A DNA stretch of 25,072 bases, taken from positions 1 to 25,072 of IMG/VR virus record IMGVR_UViG_3300028571_000108; one strand, given 5' to 3'. This DNA comes from a virus. Under the pieces are notes generated by a model. That model ran no database searches. It saw only the letters and a list, made by a program, of their open reading frames with translations, and was not told where the DNA came from. Shown here one piece after another: positions 6,220 to 24,112 of the stretch (position 1 is the first letter of the stretch; each line of letters opens with the position of its first letter). The translations under genes and the position numbers were made by a program.

Positions 6220-6247
6220 ACCTATATTAATTTAGACTTGTCAAATG
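6220..6247 (-). promoter_or_regulatory. Putative phage late promoter (TATAGGT motif), copy 1
   Basis: On the minus strand TAATATAGGT (6229-6220) abuts the GTG start. A CATTTG element (6247-6242) lies upstream, with 15 bases between TTTG and TATAGG. It comes directly after a rho-independent terminator, so a promoter is needed here for the portal/lysis block, and no host-type TAnnTTTG box is present. Promoter function is inferred. Confidence 0.6.
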
Positions 6248-6252
6248 TTCAT

Positions 6253-6281
6253 AAAAAAAGCCCCACCAATTGGCAGGGCTT
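6253..6281 (-). terminator. Rho-independent terminator after tail tube gene
   Basis: On the minus strand a near-perfect 24-base inverted repeat (6281-6258) folds as AAGCCCTGCC, AATT, GGTGGGGCTT with only two G-U pairs, followed by seven T. It ends the protease-capsid-tail transcript 21 bases after the stop of the gene at 6302. It is the strongest terminator I see in the window. Confidence 0.9.
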
Positions 6282-6301
6282 CAATATAGAGAGGCAGAAT
6301 T

Positions 6302-6841
6302 TTAAGAGACTCCGATTACCGCAAGTGCAGCAGCTGACATATTCACCTCATATGCAAGGTACTCATTCTCAGCTACCAAAGTAACAGAGTATTTACTACC
6401 ATCTGCACGAGCTGTTCCTGAGCCCTCACCTGTTGCAGATACCTGCAAGTATGGGAAGTACCAATATATACCGTTAGCATCAAGTACAATAGCAGTTAAG
6501 TATTGCTGTCCTGAGCCTAGGATTTTGATAGCACGAGACTTATCAGCTTCTCTACGGTGGAACACTAAATTAATAGTCTGAGTTACAAAAGAGCTACCAT
6601 TGACTAGGTCAATAGTTGAGTCCTCTGTGAAGTTAGATGTGTTTCTGCGGACGTAGAAGTTATCAAATGGTACAGGAATAGACTGAAGAGTAATAGCTGT
6701 TATCGACCATCCCAGACCCGCTGATGGGTCAGTTGGAGTGATAGATAAAATTTCATCTTGTTGGTTAATCCAAATACCATAAATACCACCACTATTATTC
6801 TCGCATGATTTTAAGATTGTTTCTAATGCTTGACAAGACAT
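6302..6841 (-). CDS. Putative major tail tube protein, 179 aa
   Basis: Begins MSCQALETIL, then a largely beta-strand protein with a Gly/Ser/Ala-rich C-terminal part, no signal peptide and no membrane segment. It lies directly downstream of the capsid gene and its transcript ends at a strong terminator, as expected for an abundant structural protein. Size and predicted beta content fit major tail tube proteins of long-tailed phages, and small proteins starting with this Cys-containing helix are common after capsid genes in Bacteroidota phages. A head decoration protein is the main alternative. Confidence 0.55.
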   Translation of the reverse strand: MSCQALETILKSCENNSGGIYGIWINQQDEILSITPTDPSAGLGWSITAITLQSIPVPFDNFYVRRNTSNFTEDSTIDLVNGSSFVTQTINLVFHRREADKSRAIKILGSGQQYLTAIVLDANGIYWYFPYLQVSATGEGSGTARADGSKYSVTLVAENEYLAYEVNMSAAALAVIGVS

Positions 6842-6859
6842 GTGTTAAAGTATTATATA

Positions 6860-6877
6860 AAGGGGGTTGCCCCCCTC
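6860..6877 (-). other. GC hairpin between capsid and tail tube genes
   Basis: In the 48-base gap after the capsid stop, five G and five C pair around a four-base loop (6862-6875), followed on the minus strand by TTTAT. The T tract is short, so this may be a partial terminator or an mRNA stabiliser that sets the ratio of capsid to downstream protein. The stem is directly visible; the role is inferred. Confidence 0.5.
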
Positions 6878-6889
6878 TATGAGTTAGTA

Positions 6890-7855
6890 TTAAGAATAAT
6901 AAACAATATCCTGTGGATTAACAAAGCTAAATCCTACTTTCATGTTAGCGCGAGTTCTGATTACAGGCTCAGCTACAGTATCAGCTAAATTAACAGCACG
7001 TAAATCTGAAGAATCACCCTCACCGTCAAAGGCAAAGATTAAATTGTCTTTCAAAGTGATAACAAAAGTATTATTTGACATCCCTGGACAAAGAACAATT
7101 TTGATACCTAAGTAAGTCAAGTTCAAATCCTGAGTGATATATGCTTGAGTGTTACCTGCAGCTACACCTAATCGGTAGATGTTAACCAATTGAGTAGGCA
7201 TGTAGATACGTAGATCAGCAGTTCTTGAAGCAATAGAAGCAGGAACTAAAGCAAAAGCAGCCTGTAAACTAGCACCTAATTCACCTGCTCCTGAGAATGT
7301 AGTGATAGCACCTGTACCACCATTGATAACGTAATTAACACCTGGGACAGGAACTAGAGGAGGTAAAGCTGCAGTTAATGCTACCTCATAACCATCACAC
7401 AAAGCAAGTTGTGGATTAATAGATAAGGTATCACCTTGCCATCTCAAAGACTCAATTTGTCCGTTTACAGCGTTAGCCATTTCTGACCAATAGAAGTTAA
7501 AGAAGTTAGCTACAGAGAAATCACCGTTTGACCCTGCTGCCATCTGTAAAGATACAAAAGACTGCTCTAAGTCAAACTGACAAACCTGGCTCATCGCACT
7601 TAGCGCACATACGTCAACTTCTACTGAGCTTAAATCATCAGTGTTCAAGTTAGGGAAGTTACATGGGGATGTAGCTAAAAGTTGGTTACCAAAAGTAACA
7701 GTACCAATCTTAGTCTTGTACTTGATACCAGGTAGAGTACGGAAGTTATCAGCAATCTCAGTACCACCTAAATAAGCCTGAGCATAGAATGCCTCAGCGT
7801 TTGGTGCAAGAGTTGCACTCGGGTCGATAGTTAAATCAAATCTTAATTTACGCAT
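6890..7855 (-). CDS. Major capsid protein (HK97-fold candidate)
   Basis: The 321-aa protein follows the protease/scaffold gene by 8 bases, the standard place for a major capsid protein. Features consistent with the HK97 fold are a central hydrophobic helix region, an Ala/Gly-rich segment with LQAAFALVPASIASRTADLRIYMP followed by strands, and a C-terminal ANMKVGFSFVNPQDIVYY strand as in many capsid P domains. Ala/Gly content and codon use look like a highly expressed gene. The length is typical for Bacteroidota siphophage capsids. No decoration domain is obvious. Confidence 0.82.
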   Translation of the reverse strand: MRKLRFDLTIDPSATLAPNAEAFYAQAYLGGTEIADNFRTLPGIKYKTKIGTVTFGNQLLATSPCNFPNLNTDDLSSVEVDVCALSAMSQVCQFDLEQSFVSLQMAAGSNGDFSVANFFNFYWSEMANAVNGQIESLRWQGDTLSINPQLALCDGYEVALTAALPPLVPVPGVNYVINGGTGAITTFSGAGELGASLQAAFALVPASIASRTADLRIYMPTQLVNIYRLGVAAGNTQAYITQDLNLTYLGIKIVLCPGMSNNTFVITLKDNLIFAFDGEGDSSDLRAVNLADTVAEPVIRTRANMKVGFSFVNPQDIVYYS

Positions 7856-7863
7856 TTTGTTTG

Positions 7864-8820
7864 TTATTTGTTGTTGTTAAATTTATTAAACATACTTAGT
7901 CTTTGATGTGCACTCAAGGCCACATCCTCCACAATCTCCTCATCCTCTACTGAGGTAGAAAGAATCTCATCTAATTGGTTACGCATGTCTGCAATCATTG
8001 AGGCTACAGCGTTCATGTGCTCATCTAATAAAGGTCTAACAATAGCAATGATAGCCTCTGCATCTATTACAGGGTCAACAGCCATTGTCTCTTCTACTGT
8101 TTCCTCTTCGATAACAGTATCCTCTAGGGCTACCTCTTCTGAGGTCTCCTCTACGTTTTCAACATCACGTATCTCAATAATCTCTCCGTCTTTTACAACG
8201 TAGATTTTATCCTCAATAGTGTGTTCTCCATCAGGTAATTTGTTCATGTTTATATTTGTTTTAGTTTCCTCTTTTAACTTCATTCCAAGGTACCCCTCAA
8301 TGGAGAATCCTATCTGCTCTTGTGCTACAAGTTCGGCATAGTACTCTTTGTCAGTTACTTGTGCGGTTATCATAAGTGTACCTTGTGGTACCTCAATGCC
8401 AAATGATGAGTATGCCTTATCCTCTTTTGGGTTGTCAACTATCCATGCCTCAAGTACATAAGCAGGTACAGTCATAGTAGTATCATGCTCTAGGTTAAAT
8501 AAATCTCTGTTAACCATTTGTTTCATAAACTTACCATGAATAAGCTCTATCTCTTCCTTAGTAAACTTGACATTGTACTCCTCCTTAGTATCCTCATCCA
8601 ATCTGTAAATCTCCATAGGTATCAAAGCAGGTGCAGTGATGCGGTACTTTAACTCATCTGAGAAAAACAACGGCTTAGTTTGGGAGCTAAATGCCATACC
8701 TTTGACTTTGATTGCAGGAGTAGCTGTAAAAGCTATCTGCTCAATGCCAAGGTCCTCACCATTTTCAGCATATGCTGGGTCAATAGTGATTTGATAGGTA
8801 GGAATATTTTTAGATCGCAT
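7864..8820 (-). CDS. Prohead protease (XkdF-like) fused to scaffold domain
   Basis: The N-terminal part (about residues 60-180) resembles XkdF-type phage serine proteases: NLEHD (His112), the segment VLEAWIVDNPKEDKAY, PQGTLMITAQVTDKEYYAEL, and GFSIEGYLGM with Ser173 as the likely nucleophile. The C-terminal third (about 215-318) is very acidic, with long helical stretches, as in scaffolding domains that guide capsid assembly and are then digested. It sits directly upstream of the capsid gene. The catalytic residues are assigned by family pattern only. The ATG at 8818-8820 follows a TATAGGT motif by two bases. Confidence 0.82.
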   Translation of the reverse strand: MRSKNIPTYQITIDPAYAENGEDLGIEQIAFTATPAIKVKGMAFSSQTKPLFFSDELKYRITAPALIPMEIYRLDEDTKEEYNVKFTKEEIELIHGKFMKQMVNRDLFNLEHDTTMTVPAYVLEAWIVDNPKEDKAYSSFGIEVPQGTLMITAQVTDKEYYAELVAQEQIGFSIEGYLGMKLKEETKTNINMNKLPDGEHTIEDKIYVVKDGEIIEIRDVENVEETSEEVALEDTVIEEETVEETMAVDPVIDAEAIIAIVRPLLDEHMNAVASMIADMRNQLDEILSTSVEDEEIVEDVALSAHQRLSMFNKFNNNK

Positions 8821-8822
8821 AC

Positions 8823-8852
8823 ACCTATATTATAAATTCCCTATATTTGTTC
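8823..8852 (-). promoter_or_regulatory. Putative phage late promoter (TATAGGT motif), copy 2, with a second TATAGGG
   Basis: On the minus strand TAATATAGGT (8832-8823) ends two bases before the ATG of the protease/scaffold gene. A related AAATATAGGG lies a further 14 bases upstream, overlapping the plus-strand promoter of the opposite gene pair. The gap is only 43 bases and is divergent, so both directions must be controlled from overlapping sites. Confidence 0.5.
8842..8849 (+). promoter_or_regulatory. Host-type -7 box for the plus-strand gene pair
   Basis: TATATTTG fits the Bacteroidota TAnnTTTG element and lies 14 bases before the ATG at 8864. I see no good TTTG about 20 bases upstream, so the promoter would be incomplete. 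It overlaps the TATAGGG of the opposite strand. Confidence 0.45.
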
Positions 8853-8863
8853 AAAAATTAAAA

Positions 8864-9412
8864 ATGATAACTATCTTAAACAGGGAAATTCCCAATCAAC
8901 TAGAAGAGCTCACCATTGAGCAGTTTGAAGCCATTAGCGATATTAACAATGACACTAACTTGGACTCCATTGATAAGCATTTGCAGGTGTTTGCTTACCT
9001 AGGGATACCTGAGTCTGAATTTTGGGACTATGATGTGGCTAATTTTGTTGACGTGGTTAAACAGTTTAACAGCAGTGAGCACAAAGACTACCCAACAGTG
9101 GAGGAGATAGAACTTGAGGGCTATGTGTACAAAGCACAAATGAAGTTAACTGTACGGGATACAAAGCTCATTGAAAAGATAACCATAAAAAAAGAGAAAG
9201 GCTATATATCTGAGATGTTAGCGGTGATGTTCAAACGGGAGGACCTTACATCCACTGAACACTACACAGATGCACACATCAAGCATAAAGCAAAATTAAT
9301 TAGAAAGCTAAATGCATCTATTTCTATTCCTTACATCATGTTTATTGCACAGAAAATATCACAGCAAGCCAATGATCAAGCTACCGCAGAATTGGAGCCA
9401 AGTCAGTCTTGA
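8864..9412 (+). CDS. Tail assembly chaperone candidate A, 182 aa
   Basis: Soluble, acidic, mostly helical protein starting MITILNREIP. It is similar in pattern to the next gene: LTIEQFEAIS against VSLEQFIEFS, then a helix of the type VANFVDVVKQF against MAELVEEAKWC, then MKLTVRDTKLIE against FNKLTLYEYIDL, and a shared ending of two helices. Two overlapping genes near tail tube and tape measure usually encode tail assembly chaperones, which coat the tape measure during tail building. Here the pair lies on the opposite strand to all other genes. Function is inferred from position and pairing; I cannot name a family with certainty. Confidence 0.5.
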   Translation: MITILNREIPNQLEELTIEQFEAISDINNDTNLDSIDKHLQVFAYLGIPESEFWDYDVANFVDVVKQFNSSEHKDYPTVEEIELEGYVYKAQMKLTVRDTKLIEKITIKKEKGYISEMLAVMFKREDLTSTEHYTDAHIKHKAKLIRKLNASISIPYIMFIAQKISQQANDQATAELEPSQS

Positions 9413-10112
9413 GCAGTTCATTGAATTTAGTACTATAGATAGAGAACAGGGAGCCTACCACTACAACAGTGAGGCTCTCTCTATTTTATCAGATGAACCC
9501 ATGGAGGTTATTGAGGACATGAATGTAGATGACATGGCAGAACTTGTTGAAGAGGCCAAGTGGTGTACCTCTGAGCCATCTAAGAGATACAGGAATGAAG
9601 TGCTTAGCATGAAGTTCAAACCATTCAATAAGCTAACCCTTTACGAGTACATTGACTTAGATTATTTTTTTACAGATAACTATGTAAATAATCTTGACAA
9701 AGTGTGTGCCATCTGCTACCGAAATAGCAAGGTAAATGAGTGGGGTGATGAGATATTTGAGCCCTATGAGTTTGACTGCAATATCAGAGCAGAGCGGTTC
9801 CATGACCTACCCATTACAGATGTCTATGGCATTGTGCATGAGTTTCTCAAGTACAGGGATACGTTTCTAAAAAACTATGAGAACTTATTTAGTGGTGAGC
9901 TTGATGAGGACCTTACTCCAGAGGAACGTAGAGAGTTAGATCCTGAGGAGGTCAAAGAAATAGAGCAGGAGCAGAAGATTGCTAAATGGTCATGGGAGCA
10001 AACTATCTACGGCCTTACAAATGGGGATATAACAAAGAGTGAAAAGGTAGGAGCACTACCTCTCATCTATGTGTTTAATACCTTGGCTATGAAAAAAGAA
10101 TTAGACATCTAA
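9372..10112 (+). CDS. Tail assembly chaperone candidate B, 246 aa, paralogue of A
   Basis: I chose the ATG at 9372 (MIKLPQNWSQ) rather than 9312, because the alignment with the preceding gene begins there. It overlaps that gene by 41 bases in the +1 frame. Compared with A it carries an extra acidic, Glu-rich helical C-terminal part (DLTPEERRELDPEEVKEIEQEQ) and a final helical segment. The gene ends 12 bases inside the 3' end of a gene on the other strand. A programmed frameshift product joining A and B is possible, but I see no convincing slippery site. A chaperone role is inferred. Confidence 0.5.
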   Translation: MIKLPQNWSQVSLEQFIEFSTIDREQGAYHYNSEALSILSDEPMEVIEDMNVDDMAELVEEAKWCTSEPSKRYRNEVLSMKFKPFNKLTLYEYIDLDYFFTDNYVNNLDKVCAICYRNSKVNEWGDEIFEPYEFDCNIRAERFHDLPITDVYGIVHEFLKYRDTFLKNYENLFSGELDEDLTPEERRELDPEEVKEIEQEQKIAKWSWEQTIYGLTNGDITKSEKVGALPLIYVFNTLAMKKELDI

Positions 10113-10553
10113 CGGGAAGCCCTGCTCAAATCCTGGAGGAGCATATAGTGCCTCAAATGTGTAGACTATTTTTTGCTGTCTTTCGAGTACCTCAACAGCG
10201 CCCACCAATGGATACTTTTTAGTTAACCATTCAGTGTACTGCTGATAAATTTCTGCAGTGATACCTCTACTATTTAGCTCATCCGTAAACTGTGCTACGA
10301 AATCACGAGGAGTGATCACTCCATTATTCCATAGATAAGCTCCATTGTTTAAGAATATAAAGTAATAAGCTGCTACTATTTGTATCTCCAATTTTTGGAA
10401 GCCTGTTATCTTGGCATTAATTCTAATAGAGTTAACGAGTGTACCCTCACCACCTGCCAACTCACTATCTACTATTCTCTTAAGTATAGTAGCCATCTTT
10501 CTCCTAGTAGGATAAAGGATGTTAAACTCCCCTGTGTTTGCGTATCTACCCAT
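10101..10553 (-). CDS. Hypothetical neck/tail protein, 150 aa
   Basis: A basic-to-neutral alpha/beta protein starting MGRYANTGEF. The central part (LVNSIRINAKITGFQKLEIQIVAAYYFIFLNNGAYLWNNG) reads as strands around an aromatic core, and the C-terminal half is helical. Small proteins with a similar mid-region next to tail-completion genes are known in Bacteroidota phages and resemble HK97 gp10-type neck proteins in size. Family membership is not established. The start overlaps the preceding small gene by 8 bases, and the 3' end converges with and overlaps the plus-strand pair by 12 bases. Confidence 0.55.
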   Translation of the reverse strand: MGRYANTGEFNILYPTRRKMATILKRIVDSELAGGEGTLVNSIRINAKITGFQKLEIQIVAAYYFIFLNNGAYLWNNGVITPRDFVAQFTDELNSRGITAEIYQQYTEWLTKKYPLVGAVEVLERQQKIVYTFEALYAPPGFEQGFPLDV

Positions 10554-10689
10554 TGATTAATTCTTTATATATATCCATTGTATCATCTATTAGAATGATA
10601 CCCTTATCAGTTTCTACGTGAAGCTGTGTATCACTCACCACCTCAATGGGGCCAGTGATTGTGTAGTCTATTCCATTAATATTAAACAT
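10546..10689 (-). CDS. Small hypothetical protein, 47 aa
   Basis: Starts at the ATG at 10687-10689 (MFNINGIDYT), overlapping the stop of the upstream gene by 8 bases; a longer start at 10731 would overlap it more and adds an unlikely hydrophobic leader. The sequence reads as four short beta strands (YTITGPIEVVS, QLHVETDKGIILI) and a terminal helix, like a small SH3-like or KOW-like barrel. Overlaps on both sides support real translation. Function unknown; perhaps a small virion or assembly protein. Confidence 0.5.
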   Translation of the reverse strand: MFNINGIDYTITGPIEVVSDTQLHVETDKGIILIDDTMDIYKELING

Positions 10690-11308
10690 ATGCGAATACT
10701 TTGAATAGATTAATGTTAGCAACATCAGCAATGTTCTGACATTGCATGGTGAATATAACGTAATTATCTACTGTCCTGTTAAATGCTAAGTTTACAATGT
10801 TACCTGTGGTGTAATCACTATACGCAGAATTTAAATAGCTAGTCAAGTTAGTACCATTGTAACTGAAATTACGCTCAACATAAGCTGTCTGATGTCCGTT
10901 GTTCATTGTAAAGTTAGTGTTGAATAAGGTAGCACCTGTTAAGCTGTTGGTAGTATTAAAGTAGATACGTCCGTACATCTGCCCTGCAGCCCCACTAACT
11001 CTGTACATTCTGAATACTAACTGCAGGATGTTGTTAGTACCTAATGTGTTGGCAGGTATTAATAATGAATGGCATATAGTAACGGCAGTGCTAGTAGTGT
11101 TGGTGCCTGTGACTCCTGAGAAACCTAACAGCACAGGGTTGCTACTACCCCCTGCTGCTGCTGCAATAATCTGAGCACCTGTTATAGCTGTGTTGACAGG
11201 CGAGCCGCCCACAATAGAGGTACACTCTATCAAATCAGTTGGCTGTAAATTTCCTGTGTGAGGTGTGAGGGATGGTCTCCAATCTCCCCACCATAATGGT
11301 GAACTCAT
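10682..11308 (-). CDS. Putative virion surface or tail fibre protein, 208 aa
   Basis: Rich in Thr, Asn, Ser and Gly with low charge, the composition of extracellular beta-sandwich proteins. The N-terminal region has IECTSIVGGSPVNTAITGAQI, a short segment seen at the start of some structural fibre proteins, followed by a domain resembling a jelly roll (residues about 60-208). It is the first gene of a unit with a TATAGGT motif directly before its ATG. It could be a receptor-binding tip, a fibre or a capsid decoration protein; the sequence does not decide. Confidence 0.5.
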   Translation of the reverse strand: MSSPLWWGDWRPSLTPHTGNLQPTDLIECTSIVGGSPVNTAITGAQIIAAAAGGSSNPVLLGFSGVTGTNTTSTAVTICHSLLIPANTLGTNNILQLVFRMYRVSGAAGQMYGRIYFNTTNSLTGATLFNTNFTMNNGHQTAYVERNFSYNGTNLTSYLNSAYSDYTTGNIVNLAFNRTVDNYVIFTMQCQNIADVANINLFKVFAYV

Positions 11309-11336
11309 ACCTATATTATTTTAACCCTCTCAAATG
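11309..11336 (-). promoter_or_regulatory. Putative phage late promoter (TATAGGT motif), copy 3
   Basis: On the minus strand TAATATAGGT (11318-11309) abuts the ATG at 11308. CATTTG (11336-11331) lies upstream with the same 15-base spacing between TTTG and TATAGG as in copy 1. The element fills the whole 29-base gap after the previous gene. Confidence 0.6.
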
Positions 11337-11337
11337 T

Positions 11338-11775
11338 TTAATTAAGTGGGACCGCACAATCAGTCCAATCATTCACTGTCAGTGTGATGTTCATAACATA
11401 TCCTGCAGCATAGTCAAGTAGATCGTTGTTTAATGCCTGAAATGATGGAACACCTACCACATCAAAGGCATAGTCTTGACTGTCCATGTAGTAGATGTAC
11501 AGGTCATTGAGTATCTGCTGTGTATCACTTAGGATAGTAATGATATTAGCCCTATCTTTTTGAATGATGTCAAAGCAATAGATGTCAAAGTTAAACTCTG
11601 AGGTATTTTCGGTAGGGTTAACACTGACCGGTACCACAAACACAATAGGATACTTCTCGTTCTGAGTAGCAAAGTTGTACAGTTGCTCCTTGAAATCACT
11701 ACCTACTTTCATTACCTGTAGATGGTTAGTGTAAAATAGCTCAATGTGGTTAGTAATTGCTTGTAGTGAGTTCAT
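11338..11775 (-). CDS. Tail completion/terminator-like protein, 145 aa
   Basis: Alpha/beta protein with an N-terminal helix (MNSLQAITNHIELFYTN), then strand patterns such as YPIVFVVPVSVN and FNFDIYCFDII, and a final strand YVMNITLTVNDW. This helix-strand arrangement and length fit tail completion/tail terminator proteins (gpU-like fold). These cap the growing tail tube. It is joined to the tape-measure gene by a TAATG overlap. The assignment is from length, predicted fold and position, not from a clear motif. Confidence 0.55.
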   Translation of the reverse strand: MNSLQAITNHIELFYTNHLQVMKVGSDFKEQLYNFATQNEKYPIVFVVPVSVNPTENTSEFNFDIYCFDIIQKDRANIITILSDTQQILNDLYIYYMDSQDYAFDVVGVPSFQALNNDLLDYAAGYVMNITLTVNDWTDCAVPLN

Positions 11776-13976
11776 TATAGTTCAGCGTTTTTGTTAATCT
11801 TATTAATCTTATTCTGTACGTTGGTTACTTGAGTCTCGGAAACTACAGCAGTCACAGTCATAGAGCTATTATTTGTACCACCTCCTGCACTCATTACGTT
11901 CCCAGTGTTAGCTGAGCCAAAGAGCTGAGCACCTTGAGGTACTTGCTGTGCTACATTAGTAGTTGCACCACCTGTATCTCCACCACCACCACCACCACCA
12001 CCTGATGGGGTACCGCCTGATGTTAGTATAGACTTAGCCTTAGCTACGTTGGTAGCAATCTGTATGATACCTGCAGCAAACTGTGCAATACCTGAGGCAC
12101 CAAAGGTAACAGCATTGGATGGGTTAGCATTTGATGCAGCCACGAGTGATGAGATAGCCTTGGCAGTATCAATACCTATCTGTACTAATGCCATGGCCTT
12201 GTTGAATTTCTCAAGTTTCTTTTGGTCCTTGATAAATGCAGCTCCTACATTTTGTATGCCTGTGGCTATGTCTCCTGCTAGCGCTATTTTTGCATCCCTT
12301 TCTTTTGTAGCGTTCTCAATTTTAAGATTAGCCGCATCCTCTTCTATTTTCGTTGTATCATCTTCTAGTTTCTTAGTGAGAGCTAACTGCAGTGCAGCAT
12401 TACCCTCTGCTAGTTTGTACTCTTGGTCATACTTCTCCTGAAGTGCTTGCAGTTTTAATTGGTCCTCAGTGAGTGCAGCATCTGCCAAGGTCTTAGCAAG
12501 GGTTTGCTGTTGTAGCAACTTAGCATCTGCTCTCTTTTTATTTTCTGCAGCCTCCTGATCGTTGTACAGTTGAGTTAATGTTTTCTTTTGCTCTTCTGTT
12601 AGTGTGGTATCTGCCAATGTCTGAGCTCTGAGCTTATCATACTTTGCCTTAGTAACGGCAAGCTCTTTCTCCGTTCCCTCCTCCATCATCTGTAGCTGTA
12701 AATCAGCTATGATCTCATTGCCTTTCTTAAGGTTCTCCTGCTCCAACTTAGTCTTGTCTTCTGATAGCTTGTTAATCTCCTGTTGCTGTTGAATGAGATA
12801 CATCTCGTTAAACTTAGCTTTCTCATCTGCAGTTTTGTTAGCATCATTCTTGAGGTCATTCATTAGCCTTGCATACTTCTCATTCACGATGGCCACCTCT
12901 CTCTCATTGGCATCCTTTATCTGAGATAGTTCAAAGTCTCTGAGTGCCCTGGCATTGTCTAATCTATTTTTAGCAGCGGCCTTAGCTTTCTCTCTAGCTT
13001 TTTCTGCTGCTGCTGCTGCTGCATCTGCTGCTTTGTTATCTGCATCTTTATCCTCCTTGATCTCTTGAGCCTTTATTCTTTTACGTTCATTAACACCACC
13101 TCGAATAATTTTACTCTCTTCATCAATCTGCTTTCTTAACTCAGCTCTTTTCTTAGTTGCCTCCTCACCCTCTTGGTGCCTCATTGCCTCAAGTGCTTTC
13201 TTAGCTGCAGCCTTTCTCTTAATAGCCTCTTTCTCTAGGCCTCTTGACTTGTCAAGCTCAAGCTGTGTAGTATCCTTGCCTGCAATCTTAGCCATGGCAA
13301 TCTCCTGGTCATAGTTCTCGCCTAGTAACTCAGTTCTTTTCTTACTGCTCTCTGATACTTTCTCATTAGCCTTAGCCATCTTCTCAGCGTTCTCATCTGC
13401 AGCGTAGCTGCTTAATCCTAACCAATCACTTAAATCTTTTAAGCCCTGAATTAATGCCTTAACAGGTATCATCAAAAAGTCAATGACTTTCTGTAGTACC
13501 CCTATTTTATGGAGAAAGAGTGCAATAGCCGCCACAATAGCAACAATAACAACGACCAATAAAAAGATTGGGTTAGTTAGTATGGTCATACCTAATTTTA
13601 TAAAGGCTCCCCCTACTGTTTTTAGTGTACTAGTAAGACCACCAAATGCCTTGCCGATATCCTTGGGGTTAATACTCCCTAAGTTTTTAGCAAATACCTT
13701 AGCTTTCTCAGATGCACCCTCAAAGTCCAAACTCATCAGGTCATTCTTAATAGAACGAAAGCTGTTAGATACTGACTCAAACTTAGAGCCTGTGGTGAAG
13801 ATTGCTACCTGTTCATTAGCATCCTTGAGTTGGTCCTTTAATTGCCCTGCACGCTGTGCTAAACGGGTCATTGTTTCGGGATCAGATGCATCAGCTATCT
13901 GCCCTTTAAGGTCTCTGAGCTCTGCTTTGATGGCAGCTATGCCACTTATCTTTAATGGTATCTCTACTTCATTCAT
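11775..13976 (-). CDS. Tail tape-measure protein
   Basis: The longest helical protein here (733 aa) and the ruler of tail length; at about 1.5 angstrom per residue it would set a tail of roughly 110 nm. The N-terminal third has coiled coil (ISGIAAIKAELRDLKGQIA, then QRAGQLKDQLKDANEQ). A hydrophobic segment at residues 131-155 (NPIFLLVVVIVAIVAAIALFL) is a membrane-active helix typical of tape measures. The middle (about 190-560) is a long, charged Ala/Lys/Glu coiled coil. Near the C-terminus there is a second Ala/Ile-rich helix, then a Gly run of eight and a Thr/Val-rich end. No peptidoglycan hydrolase domain is visible. Confidence 0.85.
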   Translation of the reverse strand: MNEVEIPLKISGIAAIKAELRDLKGQIADASDPETMTRLAQRAGQLKDQLKDANEQVAIFTTGSKFESVSNSFRSIKNDLMSLDFEGASEKAKVFAKNLGSINPKDIGKAFGGLTSTLKTVGGAFIKLGMTILTNPIFLLVVVIVAIVAAIALFLHKIGVLQKVIDFLMIPVKALIQGLKDLSDWLGLSSYAADENAEKMAKANEKVSESSKKRTELLGENYDQEIAMAKIAGKDTTQLELDKSRGLEKEAIKRKAAAKKALEAMRHQEGEEATKKRAELRKQIDEESKIIRGGVNERKRIKAQEIKEDKDADNKAADAAAAAAEKAREKAKAAAKNRLDNARALRDFELSQIKDANEREVAIVNEKYARLMNDLKNDANKTADEKAKFNEMYLIQQQQEINKLSEDKTKLEQENLKKGNEIIADLQLQMMEEGTEKELAVTKAKYDKLRAQTLADTTLTEEQKKTLTQLYNDQEAAENKKRADAKLLQQQTLAKTLADAALTEDQLKLQALQEKYDQEYKLAEGNAALQLALTKKLEDDTTKIEEDAANLKIENATKERDAKIALAGDIATGIQNVGAAFIKDQKKLEKFNKAMALVQIGIDTAKAISSLVAASNANPSNAVTFGASGIAQFAAGIIQIATNVAKAKSILTSGGTPSGGGGGGGGDTGGATTNVAQQVPQGAQLFGSANTGNVMSAGGGTNNSSMTVTAVVSETQVTNVQNKINKINKNAEL
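11980..12002. repeat. CCA microsatellite encoding a Gly run in the tape measure
   Basis: Consecutive CCA units on the plus strand, read as GGT codons on the coding strand and giving eight Gly in a row. A change in unit number keeps the frame, so it would only alter a flexible linker. A second short CTG run (about 13004-13022) encodes Ala residues in the same protein. Confidence 0.8.
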
Positions 13977-13977
13977 G

Positions 13978-16830
13978 TTATGGCTTGTAATATTTTATTT
14001 CGATAGTAGTATAGTTAAGGTAGCCGTCTACATAGCCCACACCTATCTGAGTTGTTGTTATATCTAATCTATTACCCGATATTATATACTGAGCACTGAT
14101 TACCCCGTCAGGATTAACATTGTTTATCATCACAGTTAGCTCACTATCTAGGATAGTACCTATCTCCCAATTCTGAATAACTCCCTGATACTGACCTGCA
14201 GAAACACGAGTCCACAGGATATCCCCAAAGCTAGACTCTTTGACATCTGCAGTAGGGTCTGCTGTTCCTGTTTGTAGAAGTATAGCTGTGTACTTGTAAC
14301 AGGATGGCTCAATAGGTATCCCGTTCATGCGGCCCCTTACCACTATGTTGTCAGTAACTATACCATCATCTTCAACGGAGTAGCCCTCAGTGGCCACCAT
14401 TACTCTGAGCCCCCCCGGTACCACGTTACCCCGGTTAACTACCTCACCAAATACTTGACCACCTGTAAGCACATTGCTATTCATGCTCTTACTCTTGGCT
14501 ACACTGTTGTTAGCTACCTGCTGTATAGCTGAGATGTTAGGTAGCCCCACACCTGGTGTTCCAAATGGGCTAATGAACGGCATGAAGTTTACTTCACTAT
14601 CTATACTGATTAGCTCTACCTGTGTGAGCTGATTGGCATTGGCATTGTAGTCAATGACTCGGTTAATGTTCCACCATGAATTGTCAATGCGTATCTTATC
14701 ATTGAGCCTCAAAGCTTGGATGTCAGTATCCTTAAGATTAAACATGGCAGTCAACATCTTGCCACTATTAATCTGCCCCATGGTTCTCCTCCAATATCTA
14801 TTGTATAGATTGTTATCGGTTAGGCTTGAGGGTTGGTAATAGTAGAACGCACACACTGAGAAGTTTAAATCCCAGGTAGGGTTGAGTGGGTTATCGAAGT
14901 GGCCTACATAGGGATAGCTAGTAACACTTTGCATACCTACCGTACCATAGTCATAGATATGGTATGGTGAGCAGGAGGTTAAGCCTACATCTGCGGTGCT
15001 ATCATACAGGATACGGATGTTAGTCTTAGGTGCCTGCCCTGATAGCATCGGTACGTATGCACCAAATGAACTCTTGATGAGTGGAGTAGGTCCAAAGAGT
15101 ACAGGCTTAGTAGTTATATCCTTTACATACTCATTGTCAAACACTACCTCTGCCTGCCCATAGATTTGATTGGTAGCTGTTGTGTACGTAGCATTAGCAC
15201 CATCCGTATCAGGTGTATACGTGAGTATTACTTTCTTACTTGTGAGCTCAGGCAGGAATGATAGAGACTGCTCTCTATCCTTGGCTAGCTTGTATGTCCA
15301 ATCTACCTCTTGCCCTGCATCGTAGTACGCATCCCTGTGGATGAGGTTGAGCTGATTAGGTTGGTTCTTATCTACATCTACATACAGGTTGTACATGTTA
15401 AAGATACCCTTAACAAAATCATTCTGCTTTATTTTCTGAGGCACATAGTCATTCACATCAATGATACCGGCACTCGCATAAATGTTATTGCTAGGGGTAA
15501 TGCTAATGTTAATGCTAGTTACCACTACATGCATCCTAATTTTGTTAGCAGCACATTGAGGGCCTGTAGCTGAGCCTGTTTTCCATGATGGGTTTAAAGC
15601 AGGTTGGTTAGGTAGCTGAAAGCTATCCTTAATGACATCAAACTTTAAGAATGCTGTAGCACCTGATGGTACACTTGGAGCAGTTACAGGTATACTAGCC
15701 GTAACTGTTTGGCTTAAGATAGTAGTGGTACCTACAGGAATGGAGGTAGGGCTTTGTACTGCATAGGTAATAGCAGTACTACCATTCAATGGGGCAGGGT
15801 TAGTGTATAGGTTGACAGCAGCTACCTGAGTAGTGTTTATATTAGCCAATAGCCTAGGTCTGTAGAACACAGGGGAGGCAAAGGTATTGGTACCTGAATA
15901 CAATGTACCGGTATGGGAGTTTACTAACCTTAGCTCATAGGTCATAGTTACACTATAGTCATACTGCTGCGAGTTGTTAGAGCTGATGTTAAATGGTATG
16001 GTGTAATTACCTGTCGCTGGGTTAAAGATACTCTGAGGGTCCTCTATCTCAGTCCATGGCATTGTGGTCAAGTTGAATGTAATAGGGTTTCCTACACTAC
16101 CTGCAAAGCCATTAGAGATAAATGTCTTAGGTCCTGCGCTAGCCTTGACCGTATAATCATTATAATCAAAGTTATCTGTATCCCCATTGTAGGGAATGAT
16201 TAGCTTGTCAAACTTATCATCTACTAGATCAGGCCAACTGTATGTAAATCCTGCACCCTGAAAGATACGATCGAAGTAAGTCTTAGCAAAGATAGCAGGC
16301 TTATACTCTTGAGTAACGGTGAACACACTACCACTACCTGGGAGAAAGTACTTGAAGCCATCTACCTCAGTATTAGAAAACCTATTGTATACATTGAATG
16401 CATCATAGGCATGATTGAAATCACTGAAGTCTATATCAGTTAGCTCTTTGTTATTGATGGCTGTAAAGAAATCTGCTTTGCTTTCCTTAATCAATACCTC
16501 ATACTCCACGTGCTCCTCATACTGCTCAGTGAGCTGTACCTTTTTAACTGAGGTGAGCTGCATGCTAGCGTTCTCCATGACAGGTATTCCATCTTGGATA
16601 ACTGAGCAGGTAGTAACCGTATTGATGTTGAAGGTACCTGCTACGATGTTAACATCATAGTAGTGGTTAAGCAGGTCATTGTTATTCTTACTGCCTACCA
16701 AAGTAATGGTCTTAGAAAAGTTACCTTTTCTTTGTGATATATCTCTGATGTCTCCTACCTGAAAGCTTAGAGGGAATGATGTACCCTCCTTAACATCTAG
16801 GTAGCCTGTAGCTAATTGTATCCTAACCAT
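13978..16830 (-). CDS. Tail tip/baseplate protein, 950 aa
   Basis: The largest gene in the window. The N-terminal part (LATGYLDVKEGTSFPLSFQVGDIRDISQRKGNFSKTITL) and several later segments are beta-rich, with alternating Asn, Thr and Tyr residues typical of virion proteins at the tail end. It lies between the 488-aa tail protein and the tape measure, where distal tail, hub or tail-associated proteins are normally encoded. The C-terminal third includes a stretch (VFGEVVNRGNVVPGGLRVMV) that may be an insertion or carbohydrate-binding part. No enzymatic motif is recognised. Upstream overlap is 8 bases. The tail role is a contextual inference. Confidence 0.6.
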   Translation of the reverse strand: MVRIQLATGYLDVKEGTSFPLSFQVGDIRDISQRKGNFSKTITLVGSKNNNDLLNHYYDVNIVAGTFNINTVTTCSVIQDGIPVMENASMQLTSVKKVQLTEQYEEHVEYEVLIKESKADFFTAINNKELTDIDFSDFNHAYDAFNVYNRFSNTEVDGFKYFLPGSGSVFTVTQEYKPAIFAKTYFDRIFQGAGFTYSWPDLVDDKFDKLIIPYNGDTDNFDYNDYTVKASAGPKTFISNGFAGSVGNPITFNLTTMPWTEIEDPQSIFNPATGNYTIPFNISSNNSQQYDYSVTMTYELRLVNSHTGTLYSGTNTFASPVFYRPRLLANINTTQVAAVNLYTNPAPLNGSTAITYAVQSPTSIPVGTTTILSQTVTASIPVTAPSVPSGATAFLKFDVIKDSFQLPNQPALNPSWKTGSATGPQCAANKIRMHVVVTSINISITPSNNIYASAGIIDVNDYVPQKIKQNDFVKGIFNMYNLYVDVDKNQPNQLNLIHRDAYYDAGQEVDWTYKLAKDREQSLSFLPELTSKKVILTYTPDTDGANATYTTATNQIYGQAEVVFDNEYVKDITTKPVLFGPTPLIKSSFGAYVPMLSGQAPKTNIRILYDSTADVGLTSCSPYHIYDYGTVGMQSVTSYPYVGHFDNPLNPTWDLNFSVCAFYYYQPSSLTDNNLYNRYWRRTMGQINSGKMLTAMFNLKDTDIQALRLNDKIRIDNSWWNINRVIDYNANANQLTQVELISIDSEVNFMPFISPFGTPGVGLPNISAIQQVANNSVAKSKSMNSNVLTGGQVFGEVVNRGNVVPGGLRVMVATEGYSVEDDGIVTDNIVVRGRMNGIPIEPSCYKYTAILLQTGTADPTADVKESSFGDILWTRVSAGQYQGVIQNWEIGTILDSELTVMINNVNPDGVISAQYIISGNRLDITTTQIGVGYVDGYLNYTTIEIKYYKP

Positions 16831-18289
16831 TTACCATGTCGTTGTTAGCGAGCTTAATTGTAATGCTCTGCTTGATTAAGTTCTTATTCCGTTGCTTGAA
16901 GTACTCATAACTAGATGTCATTATGTTACAACTCACATACGCTGTGCTATCAGGTGCATCACAGTCATTAGCATAGTTGCTTATCTTAAAGTAAGTGTAC
17001 GGTGAACTGATTAGCTCAGTGAAATAGGTAGCCATGTCCTGAGTCATCCAATCGGTATTGAGGTCAATGGTTTCCTCCACTGTTACATAGCTGTTAACAT
17101 AGCCTCTATCTATCAGGTCATAGGTCCACTCACTGCTAGCTATCTTACCCTGCACATCCATGTTGTACTGCTCGCGTTGTACCGTACCTTTCTCATAGGC
17201 TCTGCCTGTGAATGCAAAGCTACCCCATGAGCCATAGCGGTCAAGGAATATAATGCTGTACTCCTGGCTCCTCACTCTACGATCTATGTTCACTCGGTAG
17301 GGCTGTGTGACCTGTGAACCTGCATGCTCATAGTAGAACTCATACCACTCAGTGGTAGGCTTAATCAATGGCAGTGAACCTACTACCACTGTCAAGGTAC
17401 CTGCATTGTTAGGACCTACTGCGTTCCCTGTTACATGGTCCGAAGCTGCTACTGACTTTCTCAATACATCACCTCCATCATTACTGAATACTATCCTATG
17501 CGTTCCTCCAGGCATAGAGCCGTACACTGCGTTCATCCACAGGTCTTGGGACAAGGTAGCGTAGAACTCTTGAGCAGGTAGCGTGGTGAGGAACTTATCT
17601 GTTGCGTTGTTAAGGTAGTAGTCATTCTCATCCCATGCAGGCCACTCAGTCCAAGGCAGCGCCCCATTGAATACATAGTTGTTGAGCTTACTTATGATAT
17701 TGTAAGTGGTAGTCTTTCTCCCATCGGCATAGGTTATCTGCACATCCTTATTAGGGTTAACAATAGAGCTCCAAAGAAAGTTAATCACAATGTATGTAGG
17801 TGTAGCCACAAGCACCGTGTAGAGCCCATCGAAGTTAGGGTTAACAGTACCTACTCCCGATTGCGTTAATACTATCTGATCACCTACCACAAATGAGTTG
17901 GTACCATTCAACTGTACTCTACCTGAATAAGGTGCAGTGGTGTAGTTACTCATAAGAGAGGTGAACGTGGTAGTAGTTAGATACTCCTCACCTACCTTAA
18001 CATCATACTTGTAATGACTGTTAGGTGCATCGTACACTGTGGTGTTGGTAGGGTACAGGTCAAAGCTTACCTTGGCTTGTAGTAGCTTACTGAGGTCAAT
18101 CTCCCCATAGCCTGTGCCATAGGTAGGTAGCACCCTGTACTCGGCTATCTGATTGGCAGTTCCACTCTCATATACCTCAAAAATATACTTGAAGCCTAAT
18201 AGGTTTTTATTGGTGCTATCATAGATATACTTGATAGGGTTGTATGCAGGTGTCAGAACTTGAGGCTGAGCCTTTAATGATATTGCCAT
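16823..18289 (-). CDS. Tail/baseplate protein, 488 aa
   Basis: Beta-rich protein starting MAISLKAQPQ, with Thr, Tyr and Asn in abundance and almost no predicted coiled coil. The N-terminal segment LLGFKYIFEVYESGTANQIAEYRVLP echoes the 116-aa protein at 5869-6219, suggesting a shared small fold, possibly Ig-like. It ends in DNDMVNG-like polar sequence overlapping the 950-aa gene by 8 bases, so the two are probably expressed together and interact. It heads the tail operon behind a TATAGGT motif. Receptor binding or tail-tip assembly is likely; no family is certain. Confidence 0.55.
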   Translation of the reverse strand: MAISLKAQPQVLTPAYNPIKYIYDSTNKNLLGFKYIFEVYESGTANQIAEYRVLPTYGTGYGEIDLSKLLQAKVSFDLYPTNTTVYDAPNSHYKYDVKVGEEYLTTTTFTSLMSNYTTAPYSGRVQLNGTNSFVVGDQIVLTQSGVGTVNPNFDGLYTVLVATPTYIVINFLWSSIVNPNKDVQITYADGRKTTTYNIISKLNNYVFNGALPWTEWPAWDENDYYLNNATDKFLTTLPAQEFYATLSQDLWMNAVYGSMPGGTHRIVFSNDGGDVLRKSVAASDHVTGNAVGPNNAGTLTVVVGSLPLIKPTTEWYEFYYEHAGSQVTQPYRVNIDRRVRSQEYSIIFLDRYGSWGSFAFTGRAYEKGTVQREQYNMDVQGKIASSEWTYDLIDRGYVNSYVTVEETIDLNTDWMTQDMATYFTELISSPYTYFKISNYANDCDAPDSTAYVSCNIMTSSYEYFKQRNKNLIKQSITIKLANNDMVNG

Positions 18290-18316
18290 ACCTATATTAG
18301 CTTAGATACGCAATGT
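18290..18316 (-). promoter_or_regulatory. Putative phage late promoter (TATAGGT motif), copy 4
   Basis: On the minus strand TAATATAGGT (18299-18290) abuts the ATG at 18289. ACATTG lies upstream (18316-18311), with 14 bases between ATTG and TATAGG. It sits in the 31-base gap after the TerL stop and would start the tail operon. Confidence 0.6.
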
Positions 18317-18320
18317 GTTT

Positions 18321-19469
18321 CTAAAAAGCATAGTACACATCATCGGAATAATACTGCTGCTTAATGTGAGTGGTTGCGTACCTGATTGCATCCATAGCAT
18401 CATCAAATAATTTGACAGGCTCATCTGTTATGAAGTCTCCTACTTTTTTCCACTTGTAGTTCTCATACTCTCTTCTCAGTGCCTTATCATCCTGACATAT
18501 CACCCCAAAGGTCTTAAGGTTATCTATCCCTTTCTTTACCACCTTGTTTGCATTGAGTACATCATACCCTGCTATGTTCATCTCCTGTATGATTTCAGGC
18601 CTTGAGTAATCTGCTAAGATAGATACTGTTTGCTCTATGCCTAGGGTTGCTAACTTTTCAATGAGCATGGTAGTGGTAAGGTAGCTCTCATAAATCACAG
18701 GCTCAATGTATACATCTTTATCACAGTAGTATACTCTAATGAGAGCTGTGGGGTGATTGTATCCAAAGTCTAACCCGTATACGAACTTAACAAATTTAGC
18801 CGGCCTATGAGTCACAAAGGTCCATTGGCTATATATGTTACTCTTGCTGATTGCTTTCTCACCCAAGGCATAGATTTGATACAAGGCTTCATCTGTTCTC
18901 TTCAGGTCTTCTATCTGTGCCCTGATACTCTGAGGTAGGAATGGGTTATCCCTGTAGGTAGACTTAATCATAATACTCTCATCCGTTGGTAGCTCATATA
19001 GCCATGATGCACTCTCACTCGGGTTGTAGTCAAAGATTAGCTTGGACTCAGTCCTCATGTTAAGCTGGGTGAAGTCATCAAAGTATAACTCATTGGCTTC
19101 ATTGCACCATGCTATATCTCTCTTCCTACCCCTTATCTTTTGCTCATCATCCACACTAAAAAACTCCACCATAGATCCATTGCTAAAGGTATAGATGTGC
19201 TCACTCTTATTGTGGTTATCTACTGAATAAATGTTAAGCTCCTTGAGTATCTCTATGAAGTCTCTGAGTACTGTAGCTCTGAGGGCAGGGAAAGTTTTAC
19301 GAATAATACTAACTACCTTATTGTTGTTCTGGAGGCAGTAGATGATAATTAACTGACAAATGCTGTAGGTCTTAGAGCTCCTACTACCTCCCTCATTAAT
19401 AATAAACCTACGATCACCTAAGATAGCCTCATAGTTTTTCTCAAATATTACTGTGCTCTTTATTTCCAT
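18321..19469 (-). CDS. terL: Terminase large subunit (Terminase_3 family)
   Basis: ATP-driven packaging motor and headful or cos-cutting nuclease. Walker A is EGGSRSSKT (residues 26-34, Lys33), Walker B is IAWCNE with catalytic Glu124, and FDYNPS (146-151) is the coupling motif region. The C-terminal RNase H-like nuclease shows YGLDFGYNHPTA (Asp234), ILADYSRPE (Asp287) and LFDDAMDAIRYA (Asp356, Asp357 and Asp360), the expected acidic residues. At 382 aa it is a complete but short large terminase. The N-terminus overlaps the 56-aa gene by 29 bases. TerS lies just upstream, and both act at the portal vertex. Confidence 0.95.
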   Translation of the reverse strand: MEIKSTVIFEKNYEAILGDRRFIINEGGSRSSKTYSICQLIIIYCLQNNNKVVSIIRKTFPALRATVLRDFIEILKELNIYSVDNHNKSEHIYTFSNGSMVEFFSVDDEQKIRGRKRDIAWCNEANELYFDDFTQLNMRTESKLIFDYNPSESASWLYELPTDESIMIKSTYRDNPFLPQSIRAQIEDLKRTDEALYQIYALGEKAISKSNIYSQWTFVTHRPAKFVKFVYGLDFGYNHPTALIRVYYCDKDVYIEPVIYESYLTTTMLIEKLATLGIEQTVSILADYSRPEIIQEMNIAGYDVLNANKVVKKGIDNLKTFGVICQDDKALRREYENYKWKKVGDFITDEPVKLFDDAMDAIRYATTHIKQQYYSDDVYYAF

Positions 19470-19611
19470 TCATTGCTATTTGGTAGGCATTCATTAGCAT
19501 TGCCATCTGTCTGCCATCACTAGCTACTGCCTGTCTATCTATCCTTACATGAACTCCCTTGAGTAGGTAGATGTAGTCCTCCACCACTGCACACATGAAG
19601 TTAATCTGCAT
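19441..19611 (-). CDS. Small overlapping ORF between TerS and TerL, 56 aa
   Basis: Runs from the ATG at 19609-19611, inside the last bases of TerS, to the TGA at 19441-19443, 29 bases inside TerL. It fills the gap exactly, overlapping both neighbours by 11 and 29 bases. The product has a hydrophobic N-terminal helix (NFMCAVVEDYIYLLKGV), a short basic stretch and an Ala/Met-rich helix. I do not recognise a family. It may be a packaging accessory factor or only a translational bridge. The overlapping geometry makes it more likely a real gene than not. Confidence 0.5.
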   Translation of the reverse strand: MQINFMCAVVEDYIYLLKGVHVRIDRQAVASDGRQMAMLMNAYQIAMNGNKEHSNI

Positions 19612-20023
19612 CTGGTCTTACAATGGTTACCTGTATGCTCTCTATCTTATCTCCCTTGGTGGTGGTATCAACTCTCTCAGTTAGGTTGTTGAGTCGCTGA
19701 GTAATGGAGGCATTGTACTGCCCTACCATACCTCCCTCTATTTGGTCCATGCGGATTGCCTCCTCTATGCGTGAGCAGATTGTCGTGTACGCTGAATATC
19801 TCCCCTCATAGTTTGCAAAATAATCTTGGACACTTTGCCCTTTCTCTGCAGCAAAAGTCCTGAATCCCACTTGAGTAAGCGGTCTCTCTAATGGAACTGC
19901 TGTAGCTTCTCCTGTCTTAGTGGATAGGGAATAGGAGTACCTAGGATTTTCCTTGCACCATCTCTTGTAGGCTTCAAATAGATCCCACATTGCTTCAGGG
20001 GTCTCTATGTGTTTAGGCCTCAT
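19601..20023 (-). CDS. terS: Terminase small subunit
   Basis: The 140-aa protein directly before TerL begins MRPKHIETPE, followed by WDLFEAYKRWCKENP, a helical stretch characteristic of DNA-recognition parts of gp3-like small terminases in Bacteroidota phages. The central helices include the amphipathic IEEAIRMDQIEGGMVGQYNASITQRL, which suits oligomerisation. It recognises the packaging start and regulates TerL. The start overlaps the 67-aa gene by 11 bases. Family assignment is by pattern and position. Confidence 0.8.
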   Translation of the reverse strand: MRPKHIETPEAMWDLFEAYKRWCKENPRYSYSLSTKTGEATAVPLERPLTQVGFRTFAAEKGQSVQDYFANYEGRYSAYTTICSRIEEAIRMDQIEGGMVGQYNASITQRLNNLTERVDTTTKGDKIESIQVTIVRPDAD

Positions 20024-20216
20024 TAGACTCGTTCTCTACTGCTTTATATTTCTTGCTCTTAGGCTCAGCATCTTCAAATAGATACCCAAGGCCTATAGAT
20101 GTTAAGTACTCAGCTTGTTCTGCTGTTTCTTCTGTTACTGTGAATGAGGTCTCAAACCCCAAACTGTTGTACCGTACCATGTACTGGCCTAAATACTCAT
20201 TCTTTACTTTCTTCAT
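20013..20216 (-). CDS. Small hypothetical protein, 67 aa
   Basis: I chose the ATG at 20214-20216 (MKKVKNEYLG) because the 16 extra residues from an upstream ATG at 20264 fall within the other reading frame of the 55-aa gene. The product is alpha/beta and acidic at its C-terminus: a strand-rich front (YMVRYNSLGFETSFTVTEET), a helix (AEQAEYLTSIGLGYLF), then a charged tail. It overlaps the 55-aa gene by 20 bases and TerS by 11. No family is recognised; a small virion or packaging-accessory role is possible. Confidence 0.55.
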   Translation of the reverse strand: MKKVKNEYLGQYMVRYNSLGFETSFTVTEETAEQAEYLTSIGLGYLFEDAEPKSKKYKAVENESNEA

Positions 20217-20364
20217 ATTGTTCTGTAAATAACCATGCGTAATAAAGTATAACCCATACCCCAAAGGCCCTCATTGCTTGTGTGCTGTCATCTCTCAGTA
20301 GGAATGTTGCACCGGTCAAGGCAGTAAATGTTGCCAAGATACTAATTATTTGAGATAGTCTCAT
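20197..20364 (-). CDS. Small membrane protein, 55 aa; first late gene
   Basis: Starts at the ATG at 20362-20364 directly after a TATAGGT motif, and overlaps the end of the sigma-like gene by 23 bases. Two hydrophobic helices (about residues 4-23 and 32-48) are joined by a charged loop (LLRDDSTQ), with a short acidic tail. The product begins MRLSQIISIL. It would be the first gene transcribed from the late promoter leading to the terminase genes. Function unknown; candidate roles are a host membrane modifier or accessory holin or antiholin. Confidence 0.55.
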   Translation of the reverse strand: MRLSQIISILATFTALTGATFLLRDDSTQAMRAFGVWVILYYAWLFTEQYEESKE

Positions 20365-20887
20365 ACCTATATTGTAATTGTTTCAATTTTTGTTTAATTT
20401 CTCTAATCAGGTAGTGAGCAGATGTAACAGGAATATCAAAGTACTTAGCCATTGCTCGAGCTGTAATGTATCCCTTATCAATGTATGCCTCAAATACTAT
20501 CCTGTGCACATTATCATCTATCTCACTTCTGTATATCTCAATCAGCCCCTTGTGAGTAGAGTATATCTTATCCTCCAATATCTTAGCATGTAGATCCTGC
20601 TCATCATCCACCTCATCATTGCCGTCATACTCCATGGAAGCTACCCTATCATGCTTGTGGCTTAATGAAGAGTTCCACAGTATTTGATACTTTATGGTGT
20701 TAAGTAGATAGCTCTTTACCTGAGCCTCACTCTCAGCATCCTCATTAATAGTTAGTACATGTAGATAACTATTGTTAATAACTGTATCCGCCTCGATATT
20801 GCTCCCCATCTTAGAGAGAAAGTACAGAGTGTAAGCCCTGACCTCATGATAGTGGTTACTGATGTACCTGTCTAAGACTTTTTTCAT
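20342..20887 (-). CDS. Sigma-70-like (ECF-type) RNA polymerase sigma factor, 181 aa
   Basis: The C-terminal part (about residues 128-171) is a sigma4-like helix-turn-helix: HRIVFEAYIDKGYITARAMAKYFDIPVTSAHYLIREIKQKLKQL fits the pattern of promoter-recognition helices, with a basic recognition helix. The N-terminal part (about 33-80: VINNSYLHVLTINED...KSYLLNTIKYQIL) has the spacing of sigma2, which contacts RNA polymerase and the -10 region. A strongly acidic linker lies between (about 86-105). It is the last gene of the early/middle block, right before the first late motif. I infer that it drives late transcription; sigma assignment is by pattern, without a search. Confidence 0.6.
   Translation of the reverse strand: MKKVLDRYISNHYHEVRAYTLYFLSKMGSNIEADTVINNSYLHVLTINEDAESEAQVKSYLLNTIKYQILWNSSLSHKHDRVASMEYDGNDEVDDEQDLHAKILEDKIYSTHKGLIEIYRSEIDDNVHRIVFEAYIDKGYITARAMAKYFDIPVTSAHYLIREIKQKLKQLQYRYETISNN
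20365..20374 (-). promoter_or_regulatory. Putative phage late promoter (TATAGGT motif), copy 5
   Basis: On the minus strand CAATATAGGT abuts the ATG at 20364, differing from the other copies only at the first base. It lies inside the 3' coding end of the sigma-like gene, where it encodes Gln-Tyr-Arg. The other copies are in gaps, so here the motif may be partly shaped by coding sequence. Confidence 0.45.
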
Positions 20888-24078: not shown

Positions 24079-24112
24079 CAAATATACAAATAATTTAATT
24101 CACTGATACAAA
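24079..24112 (-). promoter_or_regulatory. Host-type promoter for the recombination/small-gene cluster
   Basis: On the minus strand TTTG (24112-24109) and TATATTTG (24086-24079) are separated by 22 bases, slightly longer than the Bacteroidota optimum. The ERF start lies 22 bases downstream. The upstream part overlaps the 3' end of the nuclease gene. Confidence 0.55.

Follow-up and report, generated by a model that had tools for sequence, protein, structure and literature searches.

A two-part motif at the late gene blocks of a freshwater phage family as the probable promoter of a phage-encoded ECF-like sigma factor

The window, a stretch of 25,072 nucleotides of viral DNA, raised the question of what signal is carried by a short motif that recurs directly before the genes heading its late blocks. 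TAATATAGGT lies at 6220-6229, 8823-8832, 11309-11318 and 18290-18299, and the variant CAATATAGGT at 20365-20374, all five on the minus strand. Four copies directly abut a start codon (ATG in three cases, GTG in one) and the other ends two bases before an ATG, so that the positions, strand and abutment described in an earlier note on this DNA were all borne out. That note had proposed a phage-specific late promoter class, probably leaderless. Our analysis leads to a more specific reading, to which we give a probability of roughly 0.83, namely that the motif belongs to the promoter of a late regulon read by a phage ECF-like sigma factor, with nearly leaderless mRNAs and an overlap with a host promoter.

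As the earlier note had supposed, the repetition itself is not a product of chance. The pattern YAATATAGGT occurs five times in the window against 0.25 expected, and none of 100 shuffles reached five. Each of the five copies is preceded by (A)AACA at a distance of 15-16 nt, and the combined pattern AACA-N15/17-YAATATAGGT was again observed five times, with 0.00 expected. The earlier note had seen an upstream box, (A)CATT(T)G, at three sites; a conserved upstream element does exist, but it is AAACA, and it is present at all five. The bases that follow AACA differ between sites (TTTG, CATT, AATA, AAAA), and upstream conservation over 49 non-redundant sites, drawn from the window and from 80 relatives, amounts to (T)nnAAACA. 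A bigger collection (73 non-redundant sites) shows C at -17 to be the most informative upstream base. Because bases beyond AACA are not conserved, the (A)CATT(T)G box is best understood as a partial view of AAACA; conservation stops at AACA and the TTTG after AAACA is not kept across relatives, which rules out CATTTG as a -35 box. Seven non-redundant copies of YAATATAGG inside genes of relatives do not have AAACA at the right spacing and were set aside as chance copies.

The two-part signal AACA-N15/16-YAATATAGGT stands at the head of each of the five late minus-strand blocks, as had been claimed for the motif. In the order of the minus strand, late promoter 5 (20365-20394, AACA-N16-CAATATAGGT) abuts the ATG of ORF 20197-20364, which heads a block of a small ORF, terS and terL; late promoter 4 (18290-18319, AACA-N16-TAATATAGGT) abuts the ATG of ORF 16823-18289 and the structural/tail block; and late promoter 3 (11309-11338, also AACA-N16-TAATATAGGT) abuts the ATG of ORF 10682-11308. 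Late promoter 2 (8823-8851) has the 15-nt spacer, AACA-N15-TAATATAGGT, and lies 2 nt before the ATG of the protease gene (7864-8820) in the block that encodes the protease and major capsid protein. Late promoter 1 (6220-6249, AACA-N16-TAATATAGGT) abuts the GTG of ORF 5869-6219 and the portal/lysis block. Just upstream of it an intrinsic terminator on the minus strand (stem 6282-6257) ends the protease/capsid block, and here too the earlier note had been correct in placing a terminator before this copy.

Relatives of this phage carry the same arrangement. A search of IMG/VR with the terminase of the window returned at least 80 relatives at 83-93% identity. In 24 near-complete genomes AACA-N15/17-YAATATAG occurred in 2-6 copies, with 4-6 in every genome except one; the copies of a genome always shared a strand, and a reversed-pattern control gave no matches in the same genomes. 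In 8 further near-complete genomes with more distant sigma genes the looser pattern ACA-N15/17-YAATATAG was found 3-6 times, again on one strand only, with 0-2 matches per strand for its reversed control. Taken together, all 32 near-complete relatives have the two-part signal two to six times on a single strand, and hundreds of contigs have it as well, which is the conservation that the earlier note had predicted. Five sites are conserved: in the 3' end of the sigma gene (ORF 20342-20887), after terL, before ORF 10682, before the protease gene and before ORF 5869. The earlier note had also named an observation that would count against it, the motif occurring equally at early genes or inside genes; this was sought in the 32 near-complete relatives, and the proposal withstood it.

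Scans of IMG/VR viral contigs with the motif alone, which are blind to homology and whose totals are to be taken as at least the numbers given, led back to the same group: among the matches listed, 119 of 119 stretches with the GGT form and 112 of 115 with the GTT form came from this phage family. L318, L353 and L390 are GTT-form matches without a detectable homologue of any window gene, and represent either chance or a more distant phage with the same promoter. Neither the motif nor the sigma protein was found in five distant Bacteroidota phages with terminases about 32% identical to that of the window. Among cellular genome contigs the terminase of the window found one relative: a 29.6-kb contig from a pond metagenome-assembled genome (L416, JAIXRY010000011.1) encodes a terminase 77% identical to the window's, and is probably a phage sequence that entered the bin together with its host, or accidentally.

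Whether the motif acts in DNA or in RNA could be judged from its geometry. Across the 542 same-strand sites lying no more than 15 nt from a start codon, the spacer after AACA was 16 nt at 446 sites, 15 nt at 83 and 17 nt at 13, and the gap from the motif to the start codon was 0 nt at 445, 1 nt at 15, 2 nt at 41 and 11 nt at 36. The 11-nt gaps are found before homologues of ORF 16823 in some relatives, and in other genomes the motif abuts the same gene. Because the AACA spacing is fixed while the distance to the ATG varies, the downstream element is tied to AAACA and not to the ATG, which argues for a promoter rather than a translation signal. The same comparison rules out a Shine-Dalgarno or Kozak-like reading and upholds the earlier view that the motif is not a normal ribosome binding site.

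It could still be proposed that transcription starts further upstream, from AAACA or an (A)ACATTTG -7-like box serving as the -10 element, and that UAAUAUAGGU is an RNA-level translation signal on a short leader. The motif does adjoin the start codon at most sites, and the -7 box of primary Bacteroidota promoters also ends in TTTG, some of the late sites reading AACATTTG. However, the variable distance to the ATG and the constant 15-17 nt to AAACA are not what such a signal would give, the TTTG is not kept across relatives, and Bacteroidota, which lack Shine-Dalgarno-like signals, favour A at -3 (PMC6847099), where an abutting motif presents a near-invariant G. We consider an upstream start unlikely.

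If the two-part signal is a promoter, its geometry constrains where messages would begin. In the register of the Bacteroidota primary sigma, T is at -12, G at -5 and the start 4-5 nt later (PMC6847099), and placing YAATATAG at -12 to -5 would move +1 to about the third base of an ATG that adjoins the motif, so that the spacing here would have to be about 2 nt shorter than that of the primary sigma, which counts against the proposal. In Salmonella phage 7-11 starts lie 6-9 bp from the element (PMC8948821), and by analogy +1 would fall at motif coordinates 10-13; geometry alone leaves start candidates spanning those coordinates. The message has to include its AUG, which makes the base immediately following the motif the most probable start. 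At sites where this base lies outside a start codon it is a purine in 94 of 97 cases (A in 88), the bias one would see in an initiating base, although a discriminator preference would produce it equally. The late mRNAs are thus predicted to be leaderless at most sites, while some sites would give leaders of 1-2 nt and others leaders of about 11 nt. The geometry leaves no room for a leader at 445 of the 542 sites, and we regard leaderless initiation at the late sites as a reasonably good prospect. A Bacteroidota host can make such messages, since leaderless messages make up 5.5% of those Flavobacterium psychrophilum mRNAs whose starts have been mapped (PMC9723704).

A candidate for the protein that reads the promoter, which the earlier note had not named, is encoded at 20342-20887 on the minus strand, by the last gene before the late blocks. 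The 181-residue product appears to be an ECF-like phage sigma factor, with sigma activity and specificity for the late promoter predicted from sequence and model. Of the eight NCBIfam families that the window protein matches, every one is a family of RNA polymerase sigma factors (best E 7e-4); across family members the best sigma matches have E values of 5e-4 to 2e-3. All of these matches score far below the curated cut-offs, and the Bacteroidetes sigma-70 model was matched, below its cut-off, by 12 of 21 members. The window protein gave no hit in Pfam, to sigma-70 or otherwise, nor in a sequence search of the PDB. Two AlphaFold2 models (pLDDT 80 and 79, pTM only 0.41) have helices at residues 2-73, a low-confidence linker at 80-94 and helices at 97-180, making two helical domains. 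ECF sigma factors of group 4 have about 160-200 residues with only sigma2 and sigma4 and a linker between them, and the length and the two linked domains of this protein agree with that architecture.

Foldseek comparison of the models with the PDB gave sigma factors or sigma domains as nearly all top hits in one run and as all listed hits in the other, with the best alignments, to SigL, SigH and SigE, being full-length, and many top hits among viral proteins are annotated as phage sigma-70 or ECF proteins. Over the whole chain TM-scores reached only 0.25-0.38, low values that would follow if the two domains had no fixed position relative to each other; the C-terminal domain alone matched sigma region 4 with a TM-score of about 0.6 of the target. 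All 32 near-complete genomes encode the protein, and no relatives of it were found in the cellular genome contigs that were searched. No phage-encoded RNA polymerase was recognised among the translated ORFs of one near-complete relative (G020).

The motif varies with this protein. Motif position 9 reads G at 80 of 82 sites, and T at none, in genomes whose sigma shares at least 72% identity with that of the window; at 61-72% identity it is G at 110 of 134, T at 16 and A at 8; and below 61% it is T at 50 of 51 and G at one, in a set of which part came from scans that selected G- or T-form contigs. The T form was first met in terminase-selected loci (L082-L084) and also appeared in loci fetched with the sigma protein, and most genomes are uniform at this position. 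Shared descent accounts for part of the co-variation, which follows a single phylogeny and to that extent limits it as proof of recognition. Promoter position 9 and the sigma clades together offer a natural specificity series.

Late promoter 5 lies inside the 3' end of the sigma gene, where its bases are also codons. In 60 of 60 non-redundant sigma genes carrying the site the Gln there is CAA (49% elsewhere in the gene) and both Tyr are TAT (38% elsewhere), and in the T clade the site replaces Arg (AGG) by Ser (AGT); judged from these codons, the sigma coding sequence obeys the promoter at this site. In one distant clade (L300, L302, L326, L340 and L399) the 3' end of the sigma gene encodes LK(N/Q)L(R/K)DEN and contains no internal late promoter, and the block after sigma must there be driven otherwise.

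Promoters of the host type occupy a different part of the layout. Intergenic -7 boxes of the Bacteroidota form TAHHTTTG precede the first early gene, 1393-1560 (TATCTTTG, 1588-1595, minus strand, 28 nt upstream, confirming the host-type promoter reported at 1560), early gene 23517-24056 (TATATTTG, 24079-24086, minus strand, 23 nt upstream) and the divergent plus-strand gene at 8864 (TATATTTG, 8842-8849, plus strand). No such box was found on the late strand in the intergenic space before the late blocks of the window. The box of gene 8864 overlaps the AACA of late promoter 2, its -35 element, and the same overlap is present at 97 of 97 protease sites of relatives as against 1 of 344 other late sites. 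Because the boxes overlap, the late and host holoenzymes should exclude each other at the protease block, and we infer from the sequence such a mutual exclusion at 8823-8851.

These data bear on two other proposals. The motif could be a DNA operator through which another phage regulator, an activator or repressor, acts on promoters of the host sigma; phage regulators do often bind repeated sites at operon heads, and a further small HTH-like protein turned up in a complete relative. Against this, the late blocks of the window have no host-type -7 box in the intergenic space upstream on the late strand, two parts separated by a 15-17 nt spacer are the geometry of a promoter, and every genome encodes a sigma-like protein, so that an operator is very improbable. 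That the sites are ordinary promoters of a host sigma, primary or ECF, with the phage ORF in some other role, is suggested by a length and ends (TA....G) that resemble TAHHTTTG, but is scarcely credible when the late motif has no TTTG, the Flavobacterium host ECF motif has a CGT box (PMC9723704), the motif is missing from the five Bacteroidota phages that have no phage sigma, and its form changes with the phage sigma clade.

A phage-specific late promoter class is accordingly the part of the earlier note that is now well supported, by comparison of sequences, through the fixed spacing, the single strand, the five late operon heads, conservation and the tracking of the phage sigma. In the mechanism that we propose, host RNA polymerase with its primary sigma would first read the early region from Bacteroidota-type TAHHTTTG promoters, and the last gene of that region (20342-20887) would supply the ECF-like sigma. 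This would bind the host core polymerase and direct it to AAACA-N16-YAATATAG(G/T)T, where sigma region 4 would recognise AAACA (the -35/-33 element) and region 2 would recognise YAATATAG (the -10/-7 element). The five late blocks (small ORF/terS/terL, structural/tail, ORF 10682, protease/capsid and portal/lysis) would be activated together, with transcripts that begin at the start codon, or no more than about 2 nt from it, and are therefore leaderless or nearly so, and at the protease block the late promoter would shut out the divergent host-type promoter that it overlaps. Late timing, exact start sites and leaderless translation are predictions of this scheme.

The closest known system is Salmonella phage 7-11, whose sigma gp47 and late promoters, GTAAtg-(16)-aCTA, are known experimentally (PMC8948821). 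In both cases a phage sigma would work with the host core polymerase while early genes are read through the host sigma, as inferred here, and two-part late promoters with a 16-nt spacer stand at the heads of several late blocks; the fixed-spacing -35/-10 elements at late operon heads and the sigma gene in 32 of 32 near-complete genomes are of the 7-11 type. By analogy the regulon described here probably works like that of 7-11, with a consensus and hosts that differ from those of gp47 and with two predicted features, leaderless late starts and host-promoter overlap, that the accessible text does not report for 7-11; the 7-11 paper nowhere uses the word "leaderless".

The phiEco32 sigma gp36 uses the single element tAATGTAtA without a -35 box, a difference put down to gp36 having no homology to region 4 (PMC8948821, PMC4331800). 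That phage shares with ours a phage sigma and an AT-rich -10-like element resembling TAATATAG, but the protein here, unlike gp36, keeps a predicted C-terminal helix-turn-helix domain and its promoters keep AAACA. Bacteroidota primary-sigma promoters (-33 TTTG / -7 TAHHTTTG; PMC6847099, PMC9723704) have a comparable two-part geometry and occur at the early genes of this phage, whereas the late sites lack TTTG and have AAACA at -35. The late promoters of AR9, AACA-(6N)-TA/G, also contain AACA, but with a spacing of 6 nt, leaders of 26 nt or more and the phage's own multisubunit RNA polymerases (PMC5312081); no multisubunit polymerase was recognised among the ORFs of the near-complete relative here. 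The open-access literature yielded no earlier description of the motif, and no account of Bacteroidota phages that have a phage sigma together with late promoters.

The host-type promoters and the nearest terminases point to a Bacteroidota host, and the family is probably a widespread group of uncultured freshwater phages infecting that phylum. For this large group the proposal gives a concrete early-to-late switch, and an orthogonal sigma/promoter pair likely to function with Bacteroidota polymerase. That the whole late regulon runs on leaderless mRNAs made through a phage ECF-like sigma, with a shortened geometry and a built-in early/late switch, in Bacteroidota, is a combination to which we give even odds. 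Most late starts here are predicted to be leaderless, against 5.5% in F. psychrophilum, and if they are, one may ask how viruses translate their most abundant proteins leader-free in hosts without Shine-Dalgarno signals, where leaderless mRNAs are rare.

Two minor observations concern genome structure. The contig G013:C1 (31.6 kb) carries a nearly identical late site at 763-790 and 29410-29437, near both of its ends, which suggests a terminal repeat and a complete genome of about 28-29 kb. In the window, 8864-10112 on the plus strand holds two adjacent genes opposite in direction to all late genes and preceded by a host-type -7 box; the starts of their proteins look alike (LPQNWSQVSLEQF / IPNQLEELTIEQF), and the two may be paralogues.
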